DNA of 64,000 bases, taken from assembly GCA_020444265.1 (NCBI GenBank), contig JAHLLH010000001.1:372001-436000 (forward strand), written 5' to 3'. The notes under the pieces were generated by a model. The model was not told the origin of the DNA and did no database searches. It was given only the letters and a program-made list of their open reading frames with translations. Shown here piece after piece: positions 1,385-39,167 of the stretch. Numbering within the stretch: the first letter of the stretch is position 1; each line of letters opens with the position of its first letter. The translations under genes were made by a program, and so were the position numbers. This stretch comes from a bacterium. GTDB lineage: Bacteria; Electryoneota; Electryoneia; Electryoneales; Electryoneaceae.

Positions 1385-4300
1385 GTGCGAAGCAGGTGTT
1401 CCATAAGAAGTAAACAAGGTGGCAACCATGTCATCCACTTCTTGCTCTACCTACTGCTCGCTGTTTTCCTGATTCCACCCAATCACCTGAAGGCAGCGCA
1501 AACACACATCGCCTGGTCCAGGATTGAGCAGCCGGACACACTCCAATTCGATTCGATCATCGGGGCAGTCAACTTGGATACAATCTATCTGCTTGATCAG
1601 CAGAAGAGAATCATTGCGAAAGAAGGTATCGCATTCCGAGTGCTCCCACCCCTGACACGTGAAACTTTTTCACATATAGTCACGCATTTTGATGCAGATC
1701 GCCATCTTTTCGCAACAGTTCTCGATTCCGGGTACGCTTCCGAGTCTTTCTTGTGGGATGGCAAACGCTGGGAATCATTAGGGTTGATGCATGATGTCCC
1801 GGTTCGGCTGTTCACTTTTGGCCCAAATGGCAGTATCTATGCCGCCGGGGACTGGGGAACTATCTTCCGTCGCAAACCTGGTGGGACATGGCAGCAACTC
1901 GATTCTCCAAGTTCTCAGCATATTCTGGGTTTGCTTGTTCTCGGTGATGAGGATTATTGGATCGGGGCACGAGGCGAGGGTTTGTACCACATTCACGAGC
2001 AGGAAGTCGATCAGTATACATCACCTGCCACGGATTACGTTGATGTTAACCAACTAACAAATCTACAGGACGGCACTCTCACCTTCCGGGCGGGATCGGG
2101 CCTCCAGCTTGCTGTCGCAGAGGAGAAGATTGTTCCGATCCACGAGGTCACAGGGCTGGCCGAAAGCTACTTCGTGCGCACGTTAGATGGTAGTCGTGAC
2201 CTTTTTCAATCTCGGCAAAACCTTCTGATCAAGTCCGAACATTCAATAGAAAGCATAGCTTTCCAGGACGAACGGATTCGCCAGGTTCAGTTCCTGTCGG
2301 ACGGTCAGGCGCTGGCTCTTGATCAGGAGGGAGTGCTGCTACGTGGTGATCGGCAACGTGGTCTCTTTTTCCATGATGCAACCAATCGTTTTCGATTGGC
2401 TGGCTATCCGGCTGAAACCGTTCAAGCTGCAATGTTCCACGATCTAACAGGCAATGGTCAGGAAGAGCTGACTGTGCTTGTGAAGGGATCTGCTCCTGGA
2501 CTACATGTCTATGCCCGTGAGCAGCAAGCAGGGTTCTTGGAGATAACCAGCCAGACTGGACTCCCGACAAGTCCGGGAGCAACACATGTCGTACCGGGAG
2601 ACTTTAATCGTGATGGTTGGACAGATCTGGTTCTTTCCCTTATCTCCAAAGATGGGCTTGAACTGATTCAATACAAAAATCTTGGTCGTGGACGCTTTGG
2701 AAATCCAACCTGCACAGACCAGAAGCTCCAACAATTTGACCGTCCATCAGACTTGCTGCCACTTGATCTCGAGGGGGATGGAGATCTCGACTTACTCAGC
2801 GTTGAGTACTATGGCCCTCGTAAGCAGAGACGAGGCGGTGTGAGTTTTTATCAAAACCGAATCGGTGGAAGACTTCATCGGTTGGAAGAAGCTTCCCAAA
2901 CCATGCTGGGGTTTAATCTGCAAGCATTGTGCATGGATTTCAATAGCGATGCTGTACTAGACATGCTGCTCTGCACCCGGTGGATATCCGACAAGTTTTA
3001 CTTCGGTGGTCCAGATGGATTCCTCCTGGCCGACTCAACTGTGCTTCCTACAGGTAATCAGAAAACCAATCGTGAAGGCGGGTTGGCGTTGGATATGGAT
3101 AGTGACGGCGATCTTGATCTATTCTTGATCAACCATCAAAATGGATTTGAAATCTGGAAAAATGATGGGAATGGACAGTTTGCAGACGTGACGACCGAAT
3201 GGTTAAAGACTGAGAAAGAATATCCGTTCGCCCCGACAATACTCGCAGCGGCAGCCGTCGATCTCGATCTTGATGGGGACACGGATATCCTGCTCGCAGC
3301 CCGTAAAGATCAAACACAACAGGTTATTTTACTTGAAAACAGATCAGGTCAGCTGGTTTTGAGCGAAACGTCCATCGGTCTTGAAGATGTGATTCCAGAT
3401 ATTATCCTGCCCGTGGATGTGGATCAGGATGGCGACCTTGATCTCTATATCGCTGGTGAAAAAGGCAACCACCTTTTCCTCAATCGAACTGATCGGAGCG
3501 ACTGGCTAGTCGTCCGCCCGCATGGACGTGGAAGCAATCCCGATGGCTTGCATGCTGTGGTAGATGTTTTTCCAACGGGGGAGGTGTCCAATGCCACTCG
3601 CAGCTCACACCGAAGGGGGTGGTCAGGGGGCAACCTTTTCACAAGACCGCCCTATTCCGGACAAGTACCTAACGAGATTCGATTCGGGGCATTGCAGGGG
3701 GCGCGAGTTGATGTCCGGGTGGAGTTCTATGGTGGGCGTGTTGTATGGAAACGGGACCAGCTGGTAGGCCAGTTTCTGGATGTCTATGAAAGTTACTCGC
3801 TTGCCAGTCTCTCGTACCCGTGGTTTGGACGGCTGCGTAATCAGTTGAGTCGTGCAGATGTTCAGCGTTTTCTGCTAATTTTTATCTTTGCCTCTTTCTG
3901 GATGATTGCTATCGTCCAACTGGGCAGAAAACGATTGCAATGGGGTATTCTGTGGGTCTCATCCCTTGTGTCCCTGAACCAGGCGGCGTTCTGGACGGTC
4001 GCCATTCTCGCCATACGCAGCAATCATCCCTTCAGTTTTATTGCCCCGGTGGGGTTTGTAGTATTGGGAACCATCATCCCTTTCTTGACTTCCTGGAGTT
4101 GGAGACGGTTGAAACAGGCAGATATTCACCGTCAATCAGAGGTACTGCTGAAGCATCTTCTTGTCTTTAATCATGGCGAATGGGCACAGAATAACTTGAA
4201 CAGCCTGCAACGTCTTGTACCGCATTATCTGCAAGCTGAGGAAGAGTCCCCCCAATTGGAAGCGCAATGCCGTGACCGCATCCAGACATGGCAGGATATG

Positions 4301-5008
4301 ACGGCACCAAACCTTACCCAGCTCATCGAGGCAGGTCGTCACCTCTCCACTAAAGCTGTTGTCGTCCGTGGACTTCAGGAAGATGTTCAGTCCTTGCAGA
4401 GGCTTGTAGACGACGTGTCTGCTCGGTTGGCTGGAGGAGAACGTCAGCTTGACACTGACAATTTTGTTGATACCATTCAGGCGATACGAGGTGGGTTAAA
4501 ACAGCTGAAAACACACGTCTATCGGGACCATTCCTGCGATGCCATCGTGGTCGTCCGACATCTTCTCTCCCAGATGGAGGATACGGGTGATCTACATGGG
4601 GTGGAGGTGCATGTCGAGACCGGGCAGGAATCGATGTGGGTTTTGCTGCCATCTTTTGTCCTTGCCGATGTTTTGGACAACCTGTTGCGAAACGCTTTGA
4701 AAGCTTTGAAGGCAGCTGACAACAAGCAAATTCGGATCACAGCACAGAGCATGGGAGCGAAATGCCATCTCTTCGTGACGGATAACGGGTGTGGTATCAG
4801 TTCTGATGCGACGGATGCTATCTTCCTCGAAGGTATCTCACGTGGCGGTAGTGGTCATGGCCTGGCACAGGCGCGGGACCTGCTCAAGCGATTTGGGGGC
4901 GGTATCCATTTGCACTGGAGCGAACCCGGCAAGGGATCAACGTTTCGACTGGACTTGAACGAAGGGGTAAAGCGGAGTGAAAGCGACGCTGCTGATAATA
5001 GACGATGA
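1385..5008 (+). CDS. Exported FG-GAP/ASPIC-UnbV sensor fused to a histidine kinase
   Basis: A 1207-residue transmembrane sensor kinase, here inferred to read an extracytoplasmic signal. It starts with GTG, a basic N-region and a hydrophobic stretch (about residues 16-32) ending near KAAQ, a likely signal peptide. Residues about 40-390 are an unassigned propeller-like region. Residues about 400-690 hold at least six FG-GAP/VCBS calcium loops such as DFNRDGWTDL, DMDSDGDLDL and DVDQDGDLDL. Residues about 706-800 resemble an ASPIC/UnbV module. Three hydrophobic helices follow (about 825-905). The cytoplasmic part has a possible H-box around NHGEW (about 928), an N-box DNLLRNA, a G1 box DNGCGI and a G2 box GSGHGLA, a complete HATPase_c domain. 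It overlaps the response-regulator gene by 32 bases. The kinase call is firm; the H-box is tentative. Confidence 0.85.
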   Translation: MRSRCSIRSKQGGNHVIHFLLYLLLAVFLIPPNHLKAAQTHIAWSRIEQPDTLQFDSIIGAVNLDTIYLLDQQKRIIAKEGIAFRVLPPLTRETFSHIVTHFDADRHLFATVLDSGYASESFLWDGKRWESLGLMHDVPVRLFTFGPNGSIYAAGDWGTIFRRKPGGTWQQLDSPSSQHILGLLVLGDEDYWIGARGEGLYHIHEQEVDQYTSPATDYVDVNQLTNLQDGTLTFRAGSGLQLAVAEEKIVPIHEVTGLAESYFVRTLDGSRDLFQSRQNLLIKSEHSIESIAFQDERIRQVQFLSDGQALALDQEGVLLRGDRQRGLFFHDATNRFRLAGYPAETVQAAMFHDLTGNGQEELTVLVKGSAPGLHVYAREQQAGFLEITSQTGLPTSPGATHVVPGDFNRDGWTDLVLSLISKDGLELIQYKNLGRGRFGNPTCTDQKLQQFDRPSDLLPLDLEGDGDLDLLSVEYYGPRKQRRGGVSFYQNRIGGRLHRLEEASQTMLGFNLQALCMDFNSDAVLDMLLCTRWISDKFYFGGPDGFLLADSTVLPTGNQKTNREGGLALDMDSDGDLDLFLINHQNGFEIWKNDGNGQFADVTTEWLKTEKEYPFAPTILAAAAVDLDLDGDTDILLAARKDQTQQVILLENRSGQLVLSETSIGLEDVIPDIILPVDVDQDGDLDLYIAGEKGNHLFLNRTDRSDWLVVRPHGRGSNPDGLHAVVDVFPTGEVSNATRSSHRRGWSGGNLFTRPPYSGQVPNEIRFGALQGARVDVRVEFYGGRVVWKRDQLVGQFLDVYESYSLASLSYPWFGRLRNQLSRADVQRFLLIFIFASFWMIAIVQLGRKRLQWGILWVSSLVSLNQAAFWTVAILAIRSNHPFSFIAPVGFVVLGTIIPFLTSWSWRRLKQADIHRQSEVLLKHLLVFNHGEWAQNNLNSLQRLVPHYLQAEEESPQLEAQCRDRIQTWQDMTAPNLTQLIEAGRHLSTKAVVVRGLQEDVQSLQRLVDDVSARLAGGERQLDTDNFVDTIQAIRGGLKQLKTHVYRDHSCDAIVVVRHLLSQMEDTGDLHGVEVHVETGQESMWVLLPSFVLADVLDNLLRNALKALKAADNKQIRITAQSMGAKCHLFVTDNGCGISSDATDAIFLEGISRGGSGHGLAQARDLLKRFGGGIHLHWSEPGKGSTFRLDLNEGVKRSESDAADNRR

Positions 5009-6362
5009 TCCTGGGTTCCGTGAGGATTTGACCCTGTTGCTGGGGTCCAGCTACGATTGCCTGGTAGCTGCTGACTGGGCGCGAGCTGAGGCTATCCTCG
5101 AGAGCGAAGCGCTAGAAGTTGTACTACTCGATTTGTTGTTTGGTGACATGGCAAAAGGGATCGATTACCTAGAGACCATTCACAAACTGGATCCCGCTCT
5201 TCCGGTCATCCTGATCACCGAACACGCTTCCGTGGATACCGCCGTAGAGGCAATGAAGCGGGGAGCATTCAGCTACATCTCCAAGTCAACCTCGCCAGAC
5301 GAGCTGACTATCCTGATCGAAAAAGCACGGCAAGAACGACGGTTGCGTCTTCGTACACGTCACCTGCAGGAGGAAGTCAACCAGGATTACTATCGAATAC
5401 TCGGGGAAAGTCCTGCCACAAAAGGACTTCGCCAAAAAATCGCACAAGTAGCTCAGTCCGCCCAAACCGTCCTCATCACAGGAGAAAGCGGGACAGGAAA
5501 AGAGCTTGTAGCCAGGCGTATCCATCAACAAAGTGACCGTAGCTCGAAGCCGTTTATTGCGTTCAACTGCGCTGCCATTCCGCGTGACTTGCTCGAAAAC
5601 GAACTTTTCGGACATGAAGCGGGAGCATTCACCGGTGCCAACAAGCGAAAACCAGGCAAGCTGGAGCTGGCAGCGGATGGTGTCCTTTTTTTCGACGAGA
5701 TCGGTGAGTTGGCTTCAGATGCCCAGGGTAAACTCCTTCGTGTATTAGAAGAACGGGAATATGAACGAGTTGGCGGTGTAAAAACGCTCCAAACAGAAGC
5801 ACGAATTCTCGCTGCGACCAACATCGATTTACACGATGCGATGAGAGATGGGCGGTTTCGTGAAGATCTCTTCTATCGTCTCGAAATGTTCACCATTCAT
5901 GTCCCCCCACTGAGGGAACGAAAAGGTGACATCACGCTGCTTGTTGATCACTTCCTGGTCCGGGCGGCACACGAGATGAAAACACCTGTCAAACACTTTT
6001 CCAAGGAAGCTTTGGATGCCTTCCATACATACGATTGGCCTGGGAATATCCGTGAACTTCGAAACGCAGTCCTTAGTGCAGCGCTGATCGCAACAGAAGA
6101 GGAGATCGGGATAAGGCATTTGAATCCTCGTCTTGTGACGAAAGGTAGCGCGAGTGGCTCAGCAGATCGTGTACCTGCTACCTGGGCTGAAATGGATACA
6201 ATGCGGCAGGAAGCGGCGGATGCAGCGAGCCGTGAGGTGGAAACCCGATTCCTGAGAGAGTTGCTGATTCGTCACTCGGGAAACATCAGCAAGGCAGCTG
6301 AGCAGATTGGCATCCATCGAAGTAATCTTCATAGAATGTTGAAACGATGTGGTCTGGACTGA
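4977..6362 (+). CDS. NtrC-family sigma-54-dependent response regulator
   Basis: A 461-residue transcription activator that, when phosphorylated, remodels RNA polymerase-sigma54. The GTG start lies inside the kinase gene (32-base overlap), indicating a translationally coupled cognate pair. The receiver domain (1-120) has the acid pocket D10/D11, phospho-acceptor D52 and K103. The AAA+ domain has Walker A GESGTGKE, the sigma54-contacting loop GAFTGA (from residue 216), Walker B VLFFDEIGEL and GNIRELRN. The C-terminus is a Fis-type helix-turn-helix (GNISKAAEQIGIHRSNL). No domain is missing. A terminator and then a -24/-12 promoter follow directly, so the next genes are its obvious candidate target. 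Confidence 0.95.
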   Translation: MKATLLIIDDDPGFREDLTLLLGSSYDCLVAADWARAEAILESEALEVVLLDLLFGDMAKGIDYLETIHKLDPALPVILITEHASVDTAVEAMKRGAFSYISKSTSPDELTILIEKARQERRLRLRTRHLQEEVNQDYYRILGESPATKGLRQKIAQVAQSAQTVLITGESGTGKELVARRIHQQSDRSSKPFIAFNCAAIPRDLLENELFGHEAGAFTGANKRKPGKLELAADGVLFFDEIGELASDAQGKLLRVLEEREYERVGGVKTLQTEARILAATNIDLHDAMRDGRFREDLFYRLEMFTIHVPPLRERKGDITLLVDHFLVRAAHEMKTPVKHFSKEALDAFHTYDWPGNIRELRNAVLSAALIATEEEIGIRHLNPRLVTKGSASGSADRVPATWAEMDTMRQEAADAASREVETRFLRELLIRHSGNISKAAEQIGIHRSNLHRMLKRCGLD

Positions 6363-6388
6363 CCATATGTCGCGTAGTAACGCAACAG

Positions 6389-6415
6389 TGACGCTCGCAA
6401 GAGCGTCATTTTTTT
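6389..6415 (+). terminator. Rho-independent terminator after the NtrC-type regulator
   Basis: Stem TGACGCTC/GAGCGTCA with loop GCAA (6389-6408), followed by seven T residues. It separates the kinase-regulator operon from the sigma-54 promoter downstream. Confidence 0.92.
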
Positions 6416-6481: not shown

Positions 6482-6497
6482 TGGCATTGCGATTGCA
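6482..6497 (+). promoter_or_regulatory. Sigma-54 (-24/-12) promoter
   Basis: TGGCATTGCGATTGCA fits the sigma-54 consensus TGGCAYRNNNNTTGCW with correct spacing: GG at 6483-6484, GC at 6495-6496 and ten bases between them. Transcription would start near 6508, about 58 bases before the likely start of the receiver protein. The upstream 65 bases are AT-rich and include an imperfect dyad, CAGT (6448) and ACTG (6468), that could serve as an activator site. The promoter lies directly behind a sigma-54 activator gene. Confidence 0.8.
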
Positions 6498-6565
6498 TTT
6501 GGGAAATTCGGGATTACTGAAGCTGTGCGATGGGGACCACACACGCAAGTCAGGGCCGGCAGAAA

Positions 6566-6955
6566 ATGATTTCAGGGGTGGTACAGGAGGACACGATTCT
6601 AATCATCGATGATGATGATGTCTATGTTGAAGACATAGCTATCATGTTACGAAATAAATACAGAATAATTCATATAAAGTCATTAGACAGGGTTTGTGAA
6701 ACGATTATCACCGATAAACCCTCAATAATCCTATCGGATATGTTTCTTGGAGATGATGAAACAGGGATGGAGCTGTTCTCGATGCTGGAAAAATTGGATC
6801 ATGCTCCACCGGTTGTGATGATGAGTGATCGACCATCAGTAAAAGTGATTGTAGAAGCGATGAACCGAGGAGCAGTGACCTTCATGCCAAAATCTGCTGG
6901 TGTGGATGAGTTGACAAGCATTCTCGAGCAGGTACTTGAAGACAGAAAGAGTTGA
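6566..6955 (+). CDS. Single-domain response regulator (receiver only)
   Basis: A 129-residue CheY-like receiver with no output domain. Acid pocket IIDDDD (residues 13-18), phospho-acceptor D58 in LSDMFLGD, switch S87 and K109 are present. Its C-terminal part (VEAMNRGAVTFMPKS, DELTSIL) closely parallels the receiver of the upstream NtrC-type protein (VEAMKRGAFSYISKS, DELTILI), which suggests duplication from that domain. The start was chosen at ATG 6566, with AGGG about 10 bases upstream; ATG 6530 would give 141 residues. Codon use is more AT-rich than in its neighbours. It is the first gene behind the sigma-54 promoter and lies 36 bases before the lipoprotein gene. It could be a phosphate sink, competitor or relay for the upstream kinase (inference). 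Confidence 0.88.
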   Translation: MISGVVQEDTILIIDDDDVYVEDIAIMLRNKYRIIHIKSLDRVCETIITDKPSIILSDMFLGDDETGMELFSMLEKLDHAPPVVMMSDRPSVKVIVEAMNRGAVTFMPKSAGVDELTSILEQVLEDRKS

Positions 6956-6991: not shown

Positions 6992-8674
6992 ATGATTGCA
7001 AAACACAGGAACTGGCTGCTGGCACTCTTGCTTCCCGTTCTCATGTTCAGCTTGGTACTGGGTACCGGGTGTGATGCACTGGACCCGGATGATGATGAAG
7101 ACGACTACACCTCACCGCCCTCAGAACTGTTGGGCGAATGGTACCTGTTTGCTGGGACCAATGAAGGTGATTCCGAGATGTACGACCTTTCGTTCCTGGA
7201 GATTGGTGTCGAGTTGTATGTGAATAGCGAATCCGCGACTCGTTTCCGCATGGACGTTGATGGGGACATCTCCGAAGGTGCCATTGACTGGCGGACAAGT
7301 AGCCGTAACGAATACCTCGTCTTCATCGAGGATGGGGATGAGACGGAAATCCAGGTCTTGTCTCGTTCGGAAGAACTGATCCAGTTGATGGTTCCGAATG
7401 ACGAGGGTGAAGACCAACTATGGGTTATGGCCAAAGGCAATTTCATGGTTGCCGGCCTGGTTACCGACATTGCGACTAGCCTTCCGATTGCAGGAGCGTC
7501 GATTACAGTGTACGACGAGGAAGAATCGGTCATTTTTAACGGTATCACTGCTGACCTTGGTGTTTTCCTCGCCACAGATCTCGATGCCGGTGACCTGATG
7601 ATTGAATTCGAAAAAGATGGCTACCGGACAGAGACCGAATCCTTCTCGATTGACTATGATCGCCCCGTCTTTGTGATGTGCCCGATGTACACGGGCGGTG
7701 GTAGCTCCGAAGAAGGGTGGATTGCTGGACTCGTCACAGATTCTGCCAACGGCCAACCTCTTGCTGGGGCAACGGTCCAGACAGTCGATGGTGAAGTTCG
7801 GACCACAACCGATTCGAACGGTAGTTATTCCCTCACGGTGGATGCAGGTACGTTCACTATCGTTGCATCGATGACCGGCTACGCAGACTACCAGGAACAG
7901 GTCAATGTAACCGCCGGGAATACGGCAACAGTGGATTTTGAACTTCAGCCAGGATCAACTGGTGGTGAAGGAACCGTAACAGGAATGGTAACCGCATCAC
8001 AGTCTGGTGATCCGCTCGAAGGTGTTTCCATCAGTGTCGTGGGTGGAACAGCAACCACAACCACCGATGCGTCCGGTGAATATACATTGATCGTCCCAGC
8101 TGGCATACAGCAGCTCAGCGCATCATTCACAGGGTACTACGCACTTACCGCTGATCTTTTCATCACTGCAGACGAAGATCACACCCAGAACTTCTCGCTG
8201 TCTCCGATAATCTCTGCGGGTAGTGGTGGCATGCGCATGGTGTTGTCCTGGGGGGAAAGCCCGTCCGACCTGGACAGCCACCTGCTAACGCCCGAGATCG
8301 ACGGTAGCGAGTATCATGTCTACTTCGGTAACCGTGGTGATTCGCTTGATGTCCCTTATGCCCGTCTCGATGTAGATGACACAAGTGGGTACGGCCCGGA
8401 AACAATCACGATTTACGAGGCGCAGCCCGGTACCTATCGCTACTACATCTACAACTGGTCTGGTACCCCTGACATTGCGGGTTGTGGCGCGCAGGTTCAG
8501 ATGTATAATGAAGATGGTTTGATTCAGACAGTCACAGTCCCCGCATCGGGAGAAGGTGACTACTGGTACGTCTGCGATATCGATGGAACGGATGGTTCCG
8601 TGACATTGGTGAATGAAATCCGTGACACAACTCCGGATTTCAGCCCCGGCACCGCAGCGTACAAAGCTCGTTAG
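6992..8674 (+). CDS. Lipoprotein with three carboxypeptidase-regulatory-like domains and a DUF2135-like C-terminus
   Basis: A 560-residue protein. The signal peptide ends in the lipobox LGTGC (Cys 27), so it is probably lipidated and anchored in the envelope. An acidic linker (DPDDDEDD) leads into a roughly 100-residue lipocalin-like beta domain starting LLGEWYLFAG. Three CarboxypepD_reg-like beta-sandwich repeats follow, recognisable by AGLVTDxxxGxPLAGA and TDxxGxYxL patterns. The last 150 residues (MRMVLSWGESPSDLDSHL onward, with aromatic YRYYIYNWSG) resemble the YfaP/DUF2135 domain. A clear AAGGTGAG ribosome site precedes ATG 6992. It lies behind the receiver gene and probably shares its sigma-54 promoter. 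The ligand is unknown. Confidence 0.8.
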   Translation: MIAKHRNWLLALLLPVLMFSLVLGTGCDALDPDDDEDDYTSPPSELLGEWYLFAGTNEGDSEMYDLSFLEIGVELYVNSESATRFRMDVDGDISEGAIDWRTSSRNEYLVFIEDGDETEIQVLSRSEELIQLMVPNDEGEDQLWVMAKGNFMVAGLVTDIATSLPIAGASITVYDEEESVIFNGITADLGVFLATDLDAGDLMIEFEKDGYRTETESFSIDYDRPVFVMCPMYTGGGSSEEGWIAGLVTDSANGQPLAGATVQTVDGEVRTTTDSNGSYSLTVDAGTFTIVASMTGYADYQEQVNVTAGNTATVDFELQPGSTGGEGTVTGMVTASQSGDPLEGVSISVVGGTATTTTDASGEYTLIVPAGIQQLSASFTGYYALTADLFITADEDHTQNFSLSPIISAGSGGMRMVLSWGESPSDLDSHLLTPEIDGSEYHVYFGNRGDSLDVPYARLDVDDTSGYGPETITIYEAQPGTYRYYIYNWSGTPDIAGCGAQVQMYNEDGLIQTVTVPASGEGDYWYVCDIDGTDGSVTLVNEIRDTTPDFSPGTAAYKAR

Positions 8675-8711
8675 TGGCCGACTCTACTATTTCTTCTGGT
8701 TACTAGCCTGC

Positions 8712-8744
8712 GGGGCAGAGTCTTCGGATTCTGCCCTGCTTTCT
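8712..8744 (+). terminator. Rho-independent terminator after the lipoprotein gene
   Basis: Ten-base stem GGGCAGAGTC/GATTCTGCCC around a TTCG tetraloop (8713-8736), followed by TGCTTTCTCT. Confidence 0.85.
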
Positions 8745-33195: not shown

Positions 33196-35487
33196 ATGGC
33201 TGTTTCAACCGATCCCCTTGCTGGATTGAATCCTCAGCAACGTGAAGCTGTTGAAAATACAGACGGTGCAATCCTGGTCCTCGCTGGGGCGGGAAGTGGG
33301 AAAACTCGTGTCCTGGCGCATCGAATCGCCTACATCGTACACGAGGGATTGGCAAAACCCTGGCAGATACTTGCGGTCACCTTTACCAATAAGGCAGCCC
33401 GTGAGCTGAAGGAACGTGTTGCCGCGATTACACCCGGCGGGGATGAAGTCACCGCAGGTACCTTCCACTCGACAATGCTGCGTTTACTTCGACGTGAATT
33501 CAAAGCGCTGGGTTATCCAAAAGACTTCACCATCTTCGATAACAATGATTCCGTTCGGCTGGTGAAGATGATTCTGGACGAGATGCAGGAAGAACGATTC
33601 CGTCCCAGGACTATCCATTCAGTCATCTCACGCCTGAAAAATGATCTGGTTAGCCCGGACGATTTTGTCCCCTCGGCAACATCGCCGATAGAAAAGGTTG
33701 TTTCGCAGGTCTATCCCAGTTATCAGAAGCGTCTCAAGCACCTTGCAGGGATGGATTTTGATGATCTCCTGCTGAAACCAATCGAACTCTTCAAAAACCA
33801 CCCGGCGATCCTGCACAACTGGAGTGCACGATGGCGGTACCTGCACATCGACGAATACCAGGATACGAACCTCGCCCAGTTTGAGCTGATACGTCTCCTC
33901 GGTGGCCCTAAGCCCAATTTGTGTGTCGTTGGCGATGATGACCAGTCCATCTATGGCTGGCGCGGTGCACGTGTCGAAAATGTTTTCCGCTTCAAAGATA
34001 CTTTTGATGGTGCGCAGGTTTTTCGCTTGGAGCAGAATTATCGCAGTACGCAACCCATCCTGGATCTCGCGCATGCAATTGTTTCCAAGTCCAGCCAGCG
34101 TGAAGAGAAGAAACTGTGGACGGACAAAAAGGAAGGTGTTCTGCCGCATGTGATCGGTCTGCCCAACGATATGGATGAGGCACGGGATATCGCGGATCGT
34201 ATTGGTAGAATGGTGATGAGCGGAAAGCGGATGTTCCGTGACCATGCTATTCTATACCGAACCAATGCCCAATCGCGATTATTTGAAGACATGCTACGAG
34301 GACGTCGCTACCCCTATCAGGTCGTTGGGTCGGTTGGCTTCTATGACCGGAAAGAGGTGAGGGATGCGCTCGCTTACTTCAAGCTTTGCCTGAACCCGAG
34401 AGATGACCTCGCCCTAAGGCGCATCATCGGTGAACCGCCTCGTGGGATTGGTGCCACCACCATTGATCGTCTTGTAGAATTCGCCAACCTGCGCGACCTG
34501 CCGCTTACCGATGCAATGAAGCGCTCTGAGGAAGTGGAAGGATTGGGCAAACGGGCGATGTCGGCCTGTTCAACTTTTGCCCAGCAGATTGAGTCCTGGC
34601 GCTCTACGATGGAGGACACCTCACTTGACGAATGGGCCACAACCGTACTTACGGATTCTGGATACCTACCCCGTCTCCAAAGCTCCAGCGGGTTTGAAGA
34701 CCAAGGCCGCTTGGAGAACATCGAATCCTTCATTGACAGTCTTGCGGAATACGGCTTGAAAGGTGGATCCCTTGGGGAATACATCGAAGAGGCGGCCCTT
34801 GCAACAGATCAGGACAAATACGATCCAACATCTGATACTGTCAAATTGATGACCATCCACGCCGCCAAGGGGCTTGAATTCCCCGTGGTGCATGTAACAG
34901 GGCTGGAAGCGGGCACCTTTCCGTTGCAAAATGATGATTCACCCTCCGACTTGGATGAGGAACGTCGCTTGTTCTATGTTGCGGTGACAAGAGCACGTGA
35001 GGAACTGGTCCTGAGTTACGCCATCAATCGTCGTGTCTGGGGGCAGATACAATCTCGCAACCCAAGCCAATTCTTAAGGGAGTTTCCCGAAGCATGCGCG
35101 GAATGGGAGTCGGCAAAACCTGCTTTGGGGGTACCTAACGCGAGAACACGGATGGAGCCCGATCGTAAGGGTGGTCTTTTCGGTTCCTCGCTTGGAAATC
35201 GGCCTTCTGGTTCCCAGACAAGGACGACTACAAAGCCAGATAAACCTTGGAAATCGACTGCAAATAGCAAGCCTTCGGCGGCGAGGCGTCCCAGCAACCC
35301 CGAGGACATTCCAGCGATTCGGCCTGGTGATCTTGTGGAACATCCCAAATTCGGGCGAGGAATTGTGGTTGCAACCACTAAATTCCGGAATGATCTTAAA
35401 GTATCGGTCGAGTTCGACGGTTCTGGTGTGATGAACTTGCTCCAAGGGGTCGCACGGCTTCAACCGGTGAAGGATTTCAGTTCATGA
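33196..35487 (+). CDS. pcrA: UvrD/PcrA-type superfamily 1 DNA helicase
   Basis: A 763-residue 3'-5' helicase for repair and replication. It shows the Q-motif LNPQQREAV, Walker A AGAGSGKT, TFTNKAARE, DEYQDTN, GDDDQSIYGWRGA, QNYRST, TIHAAKGLEF and VAVTRA. The C-terminus carries a Tudor-like module (IRPGDLVEHPKFGRGIVV), as in PcrA, which contacts RNA polymerase. The start at ATG 33196 is directly behind mltG. It overlaps the TPR gene by ATGA. pcrA and uvrD are not separable with certainty by eye. Confidence 0.95.
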   Translation: MAVSTDPLAGLNPQQREAVENTDGAILVLAGAGSGKTRVLAHRIAYIVHEGLAKPWQILAVTFTNKAARELKERVAAITPGGDEVTAGTFHSTMLRLLRREFKALGYPKDFTIFDNNDSVRLVKMILDEMQEERFRPRTIHSVISRLKNDLVSPDDFVPSATSPIEKVVSQVYPSYQKRLKHLAGMDFDDLLLKPIELFKNHPAILHNWSARWRYLHIDEYQDTNLAQFELIRLLGGPKPNLCVVGDDDQSIYGWRGARVENVFRFKDTFDGAQVFRLEQNYRSTQPILDLAHAIVSKSSQREEKKLWTDKKEGVLPHVIGLPNDMDEARDIADRIGRMVMSGKRMFRDHAILYRTNAQSRLFEDMLRGRRYPYQVVGSVGFYDRKEVRDALAYFKLCLNPRDDLALRRIIGEPPRGIGATTIDRLVEFANLRDLPLTDAMKRSEEVEGLGKRAMSACSTFAQQIESWRSTMEDTSLDEWATTVLTDSGYLPRLQSSSGFEDQGRLENIESFIDSLAEYGLKGGSLGEYIEEAALATDQDKYDPTSDTVKLMTIHAAKGLEFPVVHVTGLEAGTFPLQNDDSPSDLDEERRLFYVAVTRAREELVLSYAINRRVWGQIQSRNPSQFLREFPEACAEWESAKPALGVPNARTRMEPDRKGGLFGSSLGNRPSGSQTRTTTKPDKPWKSTANSKPSAARRPSNPEDIPAIRPGDLVEHPKFGRGIVVATTKFRNDLKVSVEFDGSGVMNLLQGVARLQPVKDFSS

Positions 35488-38400
35488 AACGCCAATGGTT
35501 ATCATTCATCCTGTTAATCGTTTCCCTTGTCTGGGTAGGTAGTACTTCTGCTCAGTCGAGTCGTAGTGAGTCCGATTTTATCTATGCGAAGAGGTTGTAC
35601 GAGGATGGGCTCTACGATCTTGCTGCAGAAGCGCTGGAAACCTATATCGACACCTATAGCAACAGCCCGCATCTGCCCGAAGCCAGCTTCCTGATCGGTG
35701 AAGCCTATTGGCAGGAAGATCGTTTCGAGGATGCACGCACCTCGTTTCAGCGAGTGGCGATGGAATACCCGGACGATCCACGTGCCGTTCAGGCATTGAT
35801 TCGGGTTGCTGATTCTTACCAGGTACAGGGGGAAACGGACAAATCAGTCAGGGCATTATTGCGAATCCCTGTCTTTTTTCCCTCCTCACCGTCCTCTCCC
35901 GAAGCTCTGGTCCGTGCAGCACGCATCCAAGTTGGCCGTGAAAAGTGGGCGGAAGCTGAAACTCCCTTACAGCAGGTAATTCAGCAATATGCGGGGGCGC
36001 CTGAATTGACTGAAGCACGCCTGCTCTGGGCGCAAGTCCTTGCGTCCCGAGGAGATTACGATGGCGCAATCCGAGAAGCGGAAAAGGTGATTGAACTTGC
36101 AGCATCCAGTCAGTTGGCAGTGGAAGCACTTGGATTGCAAGGGGAATGGTATTCTCGAATTGGACGCGATGCCGAAGCGGATGCTGCCTGGCAAAGAATA
36201 CTCGAGGCCTACCCCGACACCCCGGACCGTGCCTCAGCGCTGGTCAGAATGGGGGAGAGAAGGTTACGAATTGGCGATGCCCGCAAAGCGGAACCTCTTT
36301 TCCGTGAAGCGGTTGAAACAACGCAGGGAGACGATATCCTGCTGCGCTCGAGGATAGGTCTCGGTGATGCTCTCTATCTGCTCGTTCGCTATGATGAGGC
36401 GCTTGGGCAGTATTCACAAGTCGAAGCTCCCGCCCCTGAGTTGCAGTACCGTATGGCGCTTTGCTTGGAGAAAGCATCCAGGTACGGAGATGCATTGGCA
36501 CGTCTCGACCAGATCGCTGAACAGGGCTCATCTGAACTGAAAGCAGCTGCTTTTTGGCGTCGAGGACTGATTCTGCGGAAGCTTGGACGCTTCCCGGAAG
36601 CGCATACAGCTTTCCTGAACGCAGAATCCCTGGTTCAGAATCCACTATCAAAATCCAAGGCTCGTTACCTCGCCATCGAAGCATTAGCAAAGGATTTACC
36701 GGTTGATGCAGTCGAAGAGTGCGACCGTTTCCTCCCGGTCTACCCGACATCTCCACGGGTGGACGATGTTTCCAGGTTGAAGGCAAGTTTGCTCACCGAG
36801 CAGAAACGTTTTCCGGAAGCGGTTCAGGCGTGGAAGGATCTGGTGCGACGGTATCCTGCCAGTCCACTCGTGGCAGATGCAAAATTCCGTGCGGAGTACC
36901 TCGAATCCTACATGATCCAGAAAGGTGATCCCTCGACAAAGGTCGCCGGCTTGCTTGCAGAAGTGGCTGGAGGGTTGGATCGACGTGAACTTGCTCTTCG
37001 ACTTGGAAAAATCTATCTGACTGAGTACAAGGATTTTCCTGCTGCGGTACAGCAATTCGAAACTGTCCTTACTGACACCAGTGTTGCGGAGACCTTTCGC
37101 AGCCAGGCGATAGAAGGCATGGCAGAAGCACGTTGGCGCAGCTATCAGCGAGCGGTTTATGGCGAGATGGGCGGCCGATCTGAGGATGACGAATTCATTC
37201 GCGAGCAAGCTAACGCAGCATCGGCAGACCTGATAGCGCTCCTCCCGGACCTAGTCGACGAGGAGATACGGTCCGAAACGGCTTATCGGATCACGCGCCT
37301 GGGCGAGGTCATGCGCCGGGGGGAGGAACGGATCCGTTATGCCCGTCAGGCTTGGCAATCCTTTCTGGCGGATCATCCCAATTCTCCTCATGCCCCCGAA
37401 AGTTATTTCAGGTTGGGTGAGGTCTTTGCCGCCAAGATCAATGGCGATACCCTGGACATCTTCTCCGATCCCTCCATCTGGTACCTCGAGATATTAAGGG
37501 ATGATTTCCCCAACTCATCCTGGACCGATGGTGGGCTGCTACTGCTTGCGGATCGCTATATAAAGGCGGGGCGGGGTGGAGATGCACGAGAGGTGTACGA
37601 CCGAATTCTCCAGCACAATTCGAGCCCGGAACGCGTGGAAGCAAGCCTGAATCTGCTTGACTTACCCCGTACTGATGGCGACCAATCTGCAGAGATTATC
37701 AGTTGGCTGACATCGGAAGCATGGTACAATCCACGGGTGGATGAGGCCAGACGTCAAATGGCAGACAAGTACCTCGAAGCAGGGGAATACGAGCTCGCAC
37801 GGAAGCAGATTGTCTACCTCATCAGCCTCGATCCACGTATTGATGCTGGGCTGGTTATTCCGGGAGCTGTTGATCATCGCTATTCCTACGACTTGGCCAG
37901 GATTGAAGAAAAGACAGGTCATCTTGACTTGGCACGTCAGCACTATCAACGATTCCTGGCGCACCATCCTTCCAGTTCGCGCGCTCCCCTGGCGCACTTA
38001 CGTCTAGCAGAACTTCGTCAGAAGCAGGGTTATCTGACTGCAGCGGTGAGTGATTATCGCTGGTTGGTTGAAAACCCGATCAACCCGCCTGCTACTCAGG
38101 AAGCGAAACGTGCACTTGCAAGGTTGAGCCTGAAAGCAGAGGAGTGGGAGGGAGTCCTCGAATGGGCGCAAGCTGCTGAAGCAGGCGAAGAAGTTGCCGA
38201 TTCGGCACTAACATATGCAGAGCTCGCGGTTGTCGCGCTCTATCGACTGAATCGCGCCACCGAGGCCGATCAAGCGCGAGACCAGTTCGAGGACAAGTAC
38301 GGGAAACGTTCTTCATATGATATCGCAGTTGCCCATTTTGAATTAGAACGTGGGAAGCTGCTCTCTCGAAAAAAGCAGTATTCACGGGCCGAAGATGTTT

Positions 38401-39167
38401 ATCGTCGCCTGATCCGAAAATTCGAGGGAACTCCCTGGGCCCCTGAGGCCGCGTACGAATTGGGACGCGATTACCTCGAGCGGAAAAAGTATGACGATGC
38501 CCTCGAAATTCTAACCGCTATGCCAAAGGACTACCCGGGCAATCCAGTACTTGGACGAGTTTACTGGGTGCTTGGGAACTACTATGTCGAGAGTGGCAAC
38601 ATGATGGATGCCATTTCGACATACAGCAGGGTGCTGGAGGATTCAACGTATCGAGCTGTGTGGCCGCATGTTTTCAAGAATCAGATCCGGACCTACAAGC
38701 AGGCAGGTTTCTATGCCGGAGCACTGCAGGCCAACCAGAACTATCTGAAAATATATCCGAATGCAGCCGATGTCTTTGATCGGAAAATGGATGTCGGCCT
38801 GATGTACACCCAACTCGGGCAGTACGATCTCGCCATCAGCCAGTTCCGTGCAATCCAACCGATGGCGAATGTCGAGGATGAAGCGGCATGCCAGTACTAC
38901 ATCGGCGAGGCGTTGGAGAAATCGGGACGGCTTGCGGAAGCTGTCATTGAATATAAAAAAGTCGATTACCTCGGCAAGCGTACAAAGATGCAGTGGGCAG
39001 TGACCGCCTTGTACAGTGCTGGCCGCGTTCTGGAACGATTGAACGAGCCCGACAAAGCGATTGATATGTACCGCGAAATTGTAAAACGTGAAGGTCTGGG
39101 AAGCCCGTTTGGCCGTAAAGCACAGGAACAGGTAGATCGTCTGAAGCAGAACGGAGGTCAGGGATGA
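35484..39167 (+). CDS. Giant exported TPR protein
   Basis: A 1227-residue protein with signal peptide (residues 1-23, ending TSA-QS) and tetratricopeptide-like helical repeats along nearly the whole chain. Recurrent cores such as YDLAAEALETYI, FEDARTSFQRVAMEYPDDP, YELARKQIVYLI and YDDALEILTAMPKDYP match the CpoB/BamD subclass with the FPxSP turn. There is no catalytic domain. It is probably a periplasmic scaffold for envelope assembly or polymer export. It overlaps both the helicase gene and nadC by 4 bases. Specific partners are unknown. Confidence 0.85.
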   Translation: MKRQWLSFILLIVSLVWVGSTSAQSSRSESDFIYAKRLYEDGLYDLAAEALETYIDTYSNSPHLPEASFLIGEAYWQEDRFEDARTSFQRVAMEYPDDPRAVQALIRVADSYQVQGETDKSVRALLRIPVFFPSSPSSPEALVRAARIQVGREKWAEAETPLQQVIQQYAGAPELTEARLLWAQVLASRGDYDGAIREAEKVIELAASSQLAVEALGLQGEWYSRIGRDAEADAAWQRILEAYPDTPDRASALVRMGERRLRIGDARKAEPLFREAVETTQGDDILLRSRIGLGDALYLLVRYDEALGQYSQVEAPAPELQYRMALCLEKASRYGDALARLDQIAEQGSSELKAAAFWRRGLILRKLGRFPEAHTAFLNAESLVQNPLSKSKARYLAIEALAKDLPVDAVEECDRFLPVYPTSPRVDDVSRLKASLLTEQKRFPEAVQAWKDLVRRYPASPLVADAKFRAEYLESYMIQKGDPSTKVAGLLAEVAGGLDRRELALRLGKIYLTEYKDFPAAVQQFETVLTDTSVAETFRSQAIEGMAEARWRSYQRAVYGEMGGRSEDDEFIREQANAASADLIALLPDLVDEEIRSETAYRITRLGEVMRRGEERIRYARQAWQSFLADHPNSPHAPESYFRLGEVFAAKINGDTLDIFSDPSIWYLEILRDDFPNSSWTDGGLLLLADRYIKAGRGGDAREVYDRILQHNSSPERVEASLNLLDLPRTDGDQSAEIISWLTSEAWYNPRVDEARRQMADKYLEAGEYELARKQIVYLISLDPRIDAGLVIPGAVDHRYSYDLARIEEKTGHLDLARQHYQRFLAHHPSSSRAPLAHLRLAELRQKQGYLTAAVSDYRWLVENPINPPATQEAKRALARLSLKAEEWEGVLEWAQAAEAGEEVADSALTYAELAVVALYRLNRATEADQARDQFEDKYGKRSSYDIAVAHFELERGKLLSRKKQYSRAEDVYRRLIRKFEGTPWAPEAAYELGRDYLERKKYDDALEILTAMPKDYPGNPVLGRVYWVLGNYYVESGNMMDAISTYSRVLEDSTYRAVWPHVFKNQIRTYKQAGFYAGALQANQNYLKIYPNAADVFDRKMDVGLMYTQLGQYDLAISQFRAIQPMANVEDEAACQYYIGEALEKSGRLAEAVIEYKKVDYLGKRTKMQWAVTALYSAGRVLERLNEPDKAIDMYREIVKREGLGSPFGRKAQEQVDRLKQNGGQG

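Follow-up and report, generated by a model that had tools for sequence, protein, structure and literature searches.

The locus raises the question of what kind of sensor is specified by a gene whose outer part resembles a secreted protein and whose inner part is a kinase with an unusual histidine motif. Two issues are central: (i) whether the inner part is a two-component histidine kinase; and (ii) what the outer part would read, and which genes would respond. The window referred to below is the whole stretch of 64,000 nucleotides that was analysed.

The gene occupies positions 1385..5008 of the forward strand, as do all of its modules. It begins with a GTG codon, the exact start position being uncertain, has no internal stops and encodes one continuous chain of 1207 residues, as the first-pass annotation had read it. 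From the N-terminus, the modules are a signal-peptide-like segment (residues 1-37, positions 1385..1495; hydrophobic core at about 19-31 by hydropathy), an N-terminal beta-propeller region (59-336, 1559..2392), an FG-GAP propeller (347-696, 2423..3472), a divergent UnbV/ASPIC-like module (697-805, 3473..3799), three predicted membrane helices (about 823-847, 853-877 and 886-905; 3851..4099), a histidine-containing helical domain that is DHp-like (917-1064, 4133..4576) and an HATPase_c catalytic domain (1093-1192, 4661..4960). The signal peptide and the three membrane helices claimed earlier are both recovered, the helices as three in an AlphaFold model versus two clear segments by hydropathy. 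At the level of sequence, the gene is confirmed as encoding a predicted membrane sensor kinase with a CRTAC1-like outer part.

The outer part is dominated by the FG-GAP propeller, which is defined by Pfam (FG-GAP_3, E 1e-32; FG-GAP, E 6.6e-8), by a family profile and by its calcium-loop registers. There are seven such registers (residues 353, 406, 461, 518, 570, 626 and 678), spaced 52-57 residues apart as a seven-bladed propeller would give; the motif D-x-D/N-x-D-G-x-x-D is canonical in four and degenerate in three, which bears out the six or more repeats noted originally. The N-terminal propeller region matches a family profile (E 2.5e-17) and is weakly Ycf48-like, with Ycf48-like propellers matching the N-terminal part of a profile of seven ectodomains at E about 1e-3. 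The ASPIC module is less direct. Pfam gave no UnbV_ASPIC match in the window copy at E<=0.1; a profile of the module from twelve relatives, however, matches residues 697-805 with E 1e-5 (shuffled maximum 2.7 bits) and with an hhalign E of 2.3e-9, and PF07593 (UnbV_ASPIC) is matched directly in 8 of 20 family members, with a best E of 1.3e-8. The proposed ASPIC/UnbV-like module is thereby upheld, and the order of an FG-GAP propeller followed by ASPIC is that of the UnbV/ASPIC-FG-GAP (CRTAC1-like) proteins. The CRTAC1 crystal-structure entry 9etn matches the seven-ectodomain profile with E 2.7e-21, spanning the FG-GAP and ASPIC parts, whereas the window ectodomain alone gives a non-significant E of 0.81 against CRTAC1; the window copy has diverged too far to be matched by its own sequence, and the strong match needs the family profile. 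From this family resemblance we infer that the ectodomain would bind a ligand. Structure prediction of the ectodomain, an earlier suggestion, gave an AlphaFold model with a pLDDT of 47, too poor for a binding site to be read. The domain searches suggested with it succeeded by Pfam for FG-GAP and HATPase_c, but not for UnbV_ASPIC on the window copy or for HisKA variants.

In the kinase part, the HATPase_c match (Pfam, E 1.6e-16) is complete, as had been claimed, with intact N, G1, F and G2 boxes (N1103; D1133, G1135 and G1137; F1147; G1157 and G1159). Pfam found no domain between FG-GAP and HATPase_c. The helical domain in this interval has no Pfam or NCBIfam model and was delimited by family profile comparisons; it contains H930 (codon 4172..4174), the candidate phosphoacceptor, in the motif VFNHGEW. 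H930 is the only invariant histidine in an alignment of 20 members, which also have N1103, G1135, F1147, G1157, G1159 and L1160 in common. Searching the loci gathered with a profile of the helical domain gave 37 distinct domains, all of which keep the histidine; the next residue is G in 21, S in 15 and D in one. The profile was built from histidine-containing members, and its retrieval is hence somewhat biased to histidine carriers. HisKA-type models did not match the 20 full-length members (Pfam, E<=0.1) or eight isolated domains (Pfam and NCBIfam), nor did the HisKA_2, HWE, HisKA_3 and LytS-type Pfam models match the members scanned. The domain thus falls outside HisKA (PF00512), and with G, S or D after the histidine in every case it lacks the canonical H-E-x-R-T-P. 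The non-canonical H-box pointed out earlier is, as the alignments indicate, an invariant signature of a multi-phylum kinase family.

The role of H930 as phosphoacceptor is putative, as is its geometry, since the domain belongs to no recognised phosphoacceptor family and the distance from the histidine to the N-box is longer than usual: 173 residues in the window kinase and 154-188 across the family, versus roughly 105-120 in EnvZ and HK853. Clade-to-clade profile comparisons of the helical domain (E 3.6e-5 and 3.9e-6; window against family 1.9e-15) support homology over its whole length among clades. An AlphaFold model of residues 812-1207 (mean pLDDT 76, pTM 0.59, from an alignment of seven sequences) has three membrane-type helices, a long helix ending at H930, four helices after it and then the catalytic domain, of which 141 residues can be superimposed on HK853 (Z 20.3, rmsd 1.9). 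The VIA structure search mostly probed the catalytic domain (model residues 143-384) and is uninformative on the fold of the helical segment. The DHp-like profile was also compared with PDB sequences; the matches were of coiled-coil type only, the best being a designed coiled coil (E 6e-5), and were set aside as reflecting composition. Tentatively, and with the balance tilting against it, the H930 domain could represent a separate phosphoacceptor class, a long and possibly intramolecular four-helix unit as opposed to the usual two-helix hairpin, in a widespread and unmodelled kinase family that joins diverse propeller sensors to NtrC-type regulators.

The gene that follows (4977..6362, forward strand) starts 32 bases before the kinase gene ends and encodes an NtrC-type sigma54 response regulator, with Pfam matches to a receiver (PF00072), a sigma54 AAA+ domain (PF00158) in which GAFTGA is kept, and a Fis-type HTH (PF02954), a combination that places it in the NtrC family. 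In 17 family loci, window included, the gene directly after the kinase encodes an NtrC-type regulator, often with an overlap of a few bases, and the receiver Asp and Lys are invariant among these partners. At the G106 locus, no open reading frame of at least 380 codons was found in the 1.9 kb examined after the kinase, and the G455 and G376 loci end too soon after the kinase for a judgement. Trees of kinases and regulators appear broadly congruent: both contain the groups window/G039/G424, an HS-type Calditrichota clade and G361/G088/G230, with several forks in each lacking resolution. RpoN (rpoN) is encoded in the genome from which the window comes. A HATPase_c domain with its N, G1, F and G2 boxes, a conserved histidine in the helical domain preceding it and a genetically linked regulator with an intact receiver are together the features of a two-component sensor kinase. 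In G247 (L039:3696-8652), two family FG-GAP kinases stand in tandem and have one NtrC-type regulator in common. The G106 kinase (L073:1876-4677) has an N-terminal DUF1232 and an H-box with H-D instead of H-G/S.

The census that had been proposed of this architecture across genomes recovered the kinase or its domain in five phyla. It was found in 1 of 39 genomes of the window's own phylum (by a full-protein search), in the only genome searched from the phylum of G039, in 11 of 40 Calditrichota genomes, in 4 of 5 genomes of the phylum of G361 and in 18 of 20 of that of G247. In some poorly studied phyla, as the last count and that for Calditrichota show, the family is common. The ectodomains differ: the window protein and most Calditrichota members combine FG-GAP with ASPIC; G361, G088 and G230 carry Reg_prop; and the members read from the G247 group have FG-GAP without recognisable ASPIC. 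The kinase domain family thus appears from sequence comparison to span at least five phyla with different propeller ectodomains. G039 has an N-terminal piece and a catalytic piece of such a gene, each at a contig end, with the helical domain in the stretch that is missing; we infer that assembly has split a single gene in two. A kinase copy in G431 likewise reaches past the end of its contig. The H-box is non-standard, as the earlier reading said, but the architecture is not an isolated oddity: it recurs in Calditrichota and, in fragments, in another phylum.

Within the window's phylum, the kinase was not found in the other 38 genomes, nor was the N-terminal region in a separate search of six genomes of the same family, and yet the G+C content of the gene fits the window. 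The patchy presence suggests that the gene was gained horizontally or lost repeatedly. The gene immediately before the kinase, in the same orientation, is CHAT-like in three Calditrichota-type loci (L034:5364-8501, L035:290-3472 and L076:3-1016), with CHAT and TPR repeats by Pfam in L034 and L035 and CHAT-like similarity in L076; this arrangement, not seen in the window, suggests a functional link between the neighbour and the kinase in those three loci. The L076 and L078 contigs carry Calditrichota-like kinases under the labels Heimdallarchaeota and Flavobacteriaceae, and are probably mis-binned. Elsewhere in the window, positions 35484-39167 encode a protein of 1227 residues consisting almost entirely of TPR repeats.

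A candidate target of the regulator lies immediately downstream of it. The regulator gene is followed by a terminator-like (intrinsic) hairpin and T run (6387..6410), a sigma54-like -24/-12 site TGGCATTGCGATTGCA with GG-N10-GC spacing (6482..6497, suggestive only), a stand-alone receiver with its ATG at 6530 or 6566 (6530..6955) and a surface-lipoprotein gene (6992..8674) that encodes a lipobox-like LVLGTGC and three CarboxypepD_reg-like domains, all on the forward strand; a terminator at 8710-8739 follows. The nearest in-genome relative of the lone receiver is the receiver of the partner regulator (E 4e-19; next relative E 2e-7). With at most one mismatch to TGGCAYRN4TTGCW, the site at 6482-6497 is the only one in the 64 kb; as 2.2 are expected in the window by chance, its presence is unremarkable, and it is its position that is notable. 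The site, which was picked after looking, scores 10/12, a score reached by about 0.75% of 300-base tiles, and sites of that score follow the regulator gene in 2 of 17 family loci, versus 0.13 expected. There were no sigma54-like sites of note upstream of the kinase genes, and a sigma70 scan gave no excess over shuffles. Taken as sequence evidence, the arrangement is suggestive of a receiver-lipoprotein operon that may be a target of the regulator.

We consider it probable, with a probability of roughly 0.7, that the gene encodes a two-component membrane sensor that responds to an extracellular ligand by driving transcription through sigma54. The architecture, the conservation of the histidine, of the ATP boxes and of the partner gene, the broadly congruent trees and the presence of rpoN argue for such a reading. 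The N-terminal propeller and the CRTAC1-like FG-GAP/ASPIC part would bind the ligand outside the cytoplasmic membrane, the likeliest class of ligand being a glycan or a surface protein, with Ca2+ probably held in the FG-GAP loops. Binding would move the three helices in the membrane, together with the long helix that runs on into the DHp-like domain, upon which the HATPase domain would phosphorylate H930. The phosphate would then move to the receiver Asp of the regulator encoded by the overlapping gene, and the phosphorylated regulator would activate sigma54 promoters. Within the presumed regulon, the receiver-lipoprotein operon is one candidate target, and its lone receiver could compete for phosphate.

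Other explanations were weighed against this one. That a frameshift or a fault of assembly fused an FG-GAP gene to a kinase gene would be in keeping with the single occurrence in the window's phylum, but is refuted by relatives from about ten other, independent genomes that have the same module order in single open reading frames (G111, G252, G441, G449, G425, G429, G444, G424, G455 and G436), and family profiles match the window protein on either side of the junction; its likelihood is negligible. It is also unlikely, though far less so, that a genuine HATPase domain acts without H930 as phosphoacceptor, the protein working in the manner of PDK/BCKDK-type kinases or phosphorylating another residue, with the four-helix segment as a regulatory bundle. 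The failure of every member tested to match HisKA-type models would fit, as would the four helices modelled between H930 and the catalytic domain and the PDK structures among the structural matches. Those matches, however, mostly cover the catalytic domain, which is common to all GHKL kinases, and the reading is opposed by the invariance of H930 in all 37 domains and by the almost constant adjoining NtrC-type regulator with intact receiver residues.

The remaining alternatives concern the signal. The protein could sense polysaccharides in the manner of the Bacteroides hybrid two-component systems, from which only its propellers and its split regulator would set it apart, and this we regard as the strongest of the alternatives, albeit at well under even odds. 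Its ectodomain is a double propeller, three relatives have Reg_prop propellers, and the ectodomains of BT4663 and BT3049 head a fold search with the ectodomain model; the search is a weak pointer, as the model is of low confidence and TM is about 0.2. Against the analogy, the FG-GAP members have no Reg_prop or Y_Y_Y match, the window kinase has no receiver of its own, the regulator is separate and of sigma54 type, and polysaccharide-utilisation genes were not recognised among the immediate neighbours scanned. It is rather improbable that the sensor reads Ca2+ itself, with the FG-GAP loops as signal-binding sites. Calcium in FG-GAP loops is usually structural, and relatives with Reg_prop ectodomains have the same kinase domain and no such loops. 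In the window protein itself, the four canonical registers could serve such a role, but several of the loops are degenerate. Ca2+-sensing bacterial kinases do exist, with LadS, CarSR and CvsSR listed among such systems (PMC10574481).

In the open-access papers searched, we found no description of histidine kinases with FG-GAP or ASPIC domains, and the family is apparently new to description. A two-component sensor is a known kind of system; its candidate phosphoacceptor domain and its ectodomain make this one a new form of it. The classification of histidine kinases is based on their phosphoacceptor domains, and as this family matches none of the curated ones tested, detection by a HisKA-type match would overlook or misclassify it. 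With a signal receptor that bears a CRTAC1-like module, the family also offers a route to what such modules bind.

Finally, the window kinase can be compared with known systems. The same succession of propeller and UnbV/ASPIC module is found in the animal protein CRTAC1 (cartilage acidic protein 1, PDB 9etn) and in other secreted FG-GAP/UnbV_ASPIC proteins, but CRTAC1, a secreted protein, lacks both a membrane domain and a kinase domain. The Bacteroides hybrid systems BT4663 and BT3049 also place a large propeller-based periplasmic sensor before a kinase, and Reg_prop is found in some relatives of the window kinase; the latter differs in that Reg_prop and Y_Y_Y are not detected, its sigma54 regulator is a separate protein and its helical domain is not HisKA. 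HWE/HisKA_2 kinases are, as here, a non-HisKA subfamily with DHp variations of its own (PMC10359499), whereas the members scanned in this study have no HisKA_2 or HWE match, and the window kinase is membrane-bound with a DNA-binding partner. The NtrB/ZraS/AtoS-type HisKA kinases and their NtrC-type regulators likewise combine an HATPase_c domain with an adjoining NtrC-type sigma54 regulator, and ZraS (9jfj) is the best PDB sequence match of the window kinase; the differences are that the window kinase has no HisKA domain, that in its family the histidine is followed by G or S rather than E, that its histidine and N-box lie 173 residues apart, and that it carries a large propeller ectodomain.
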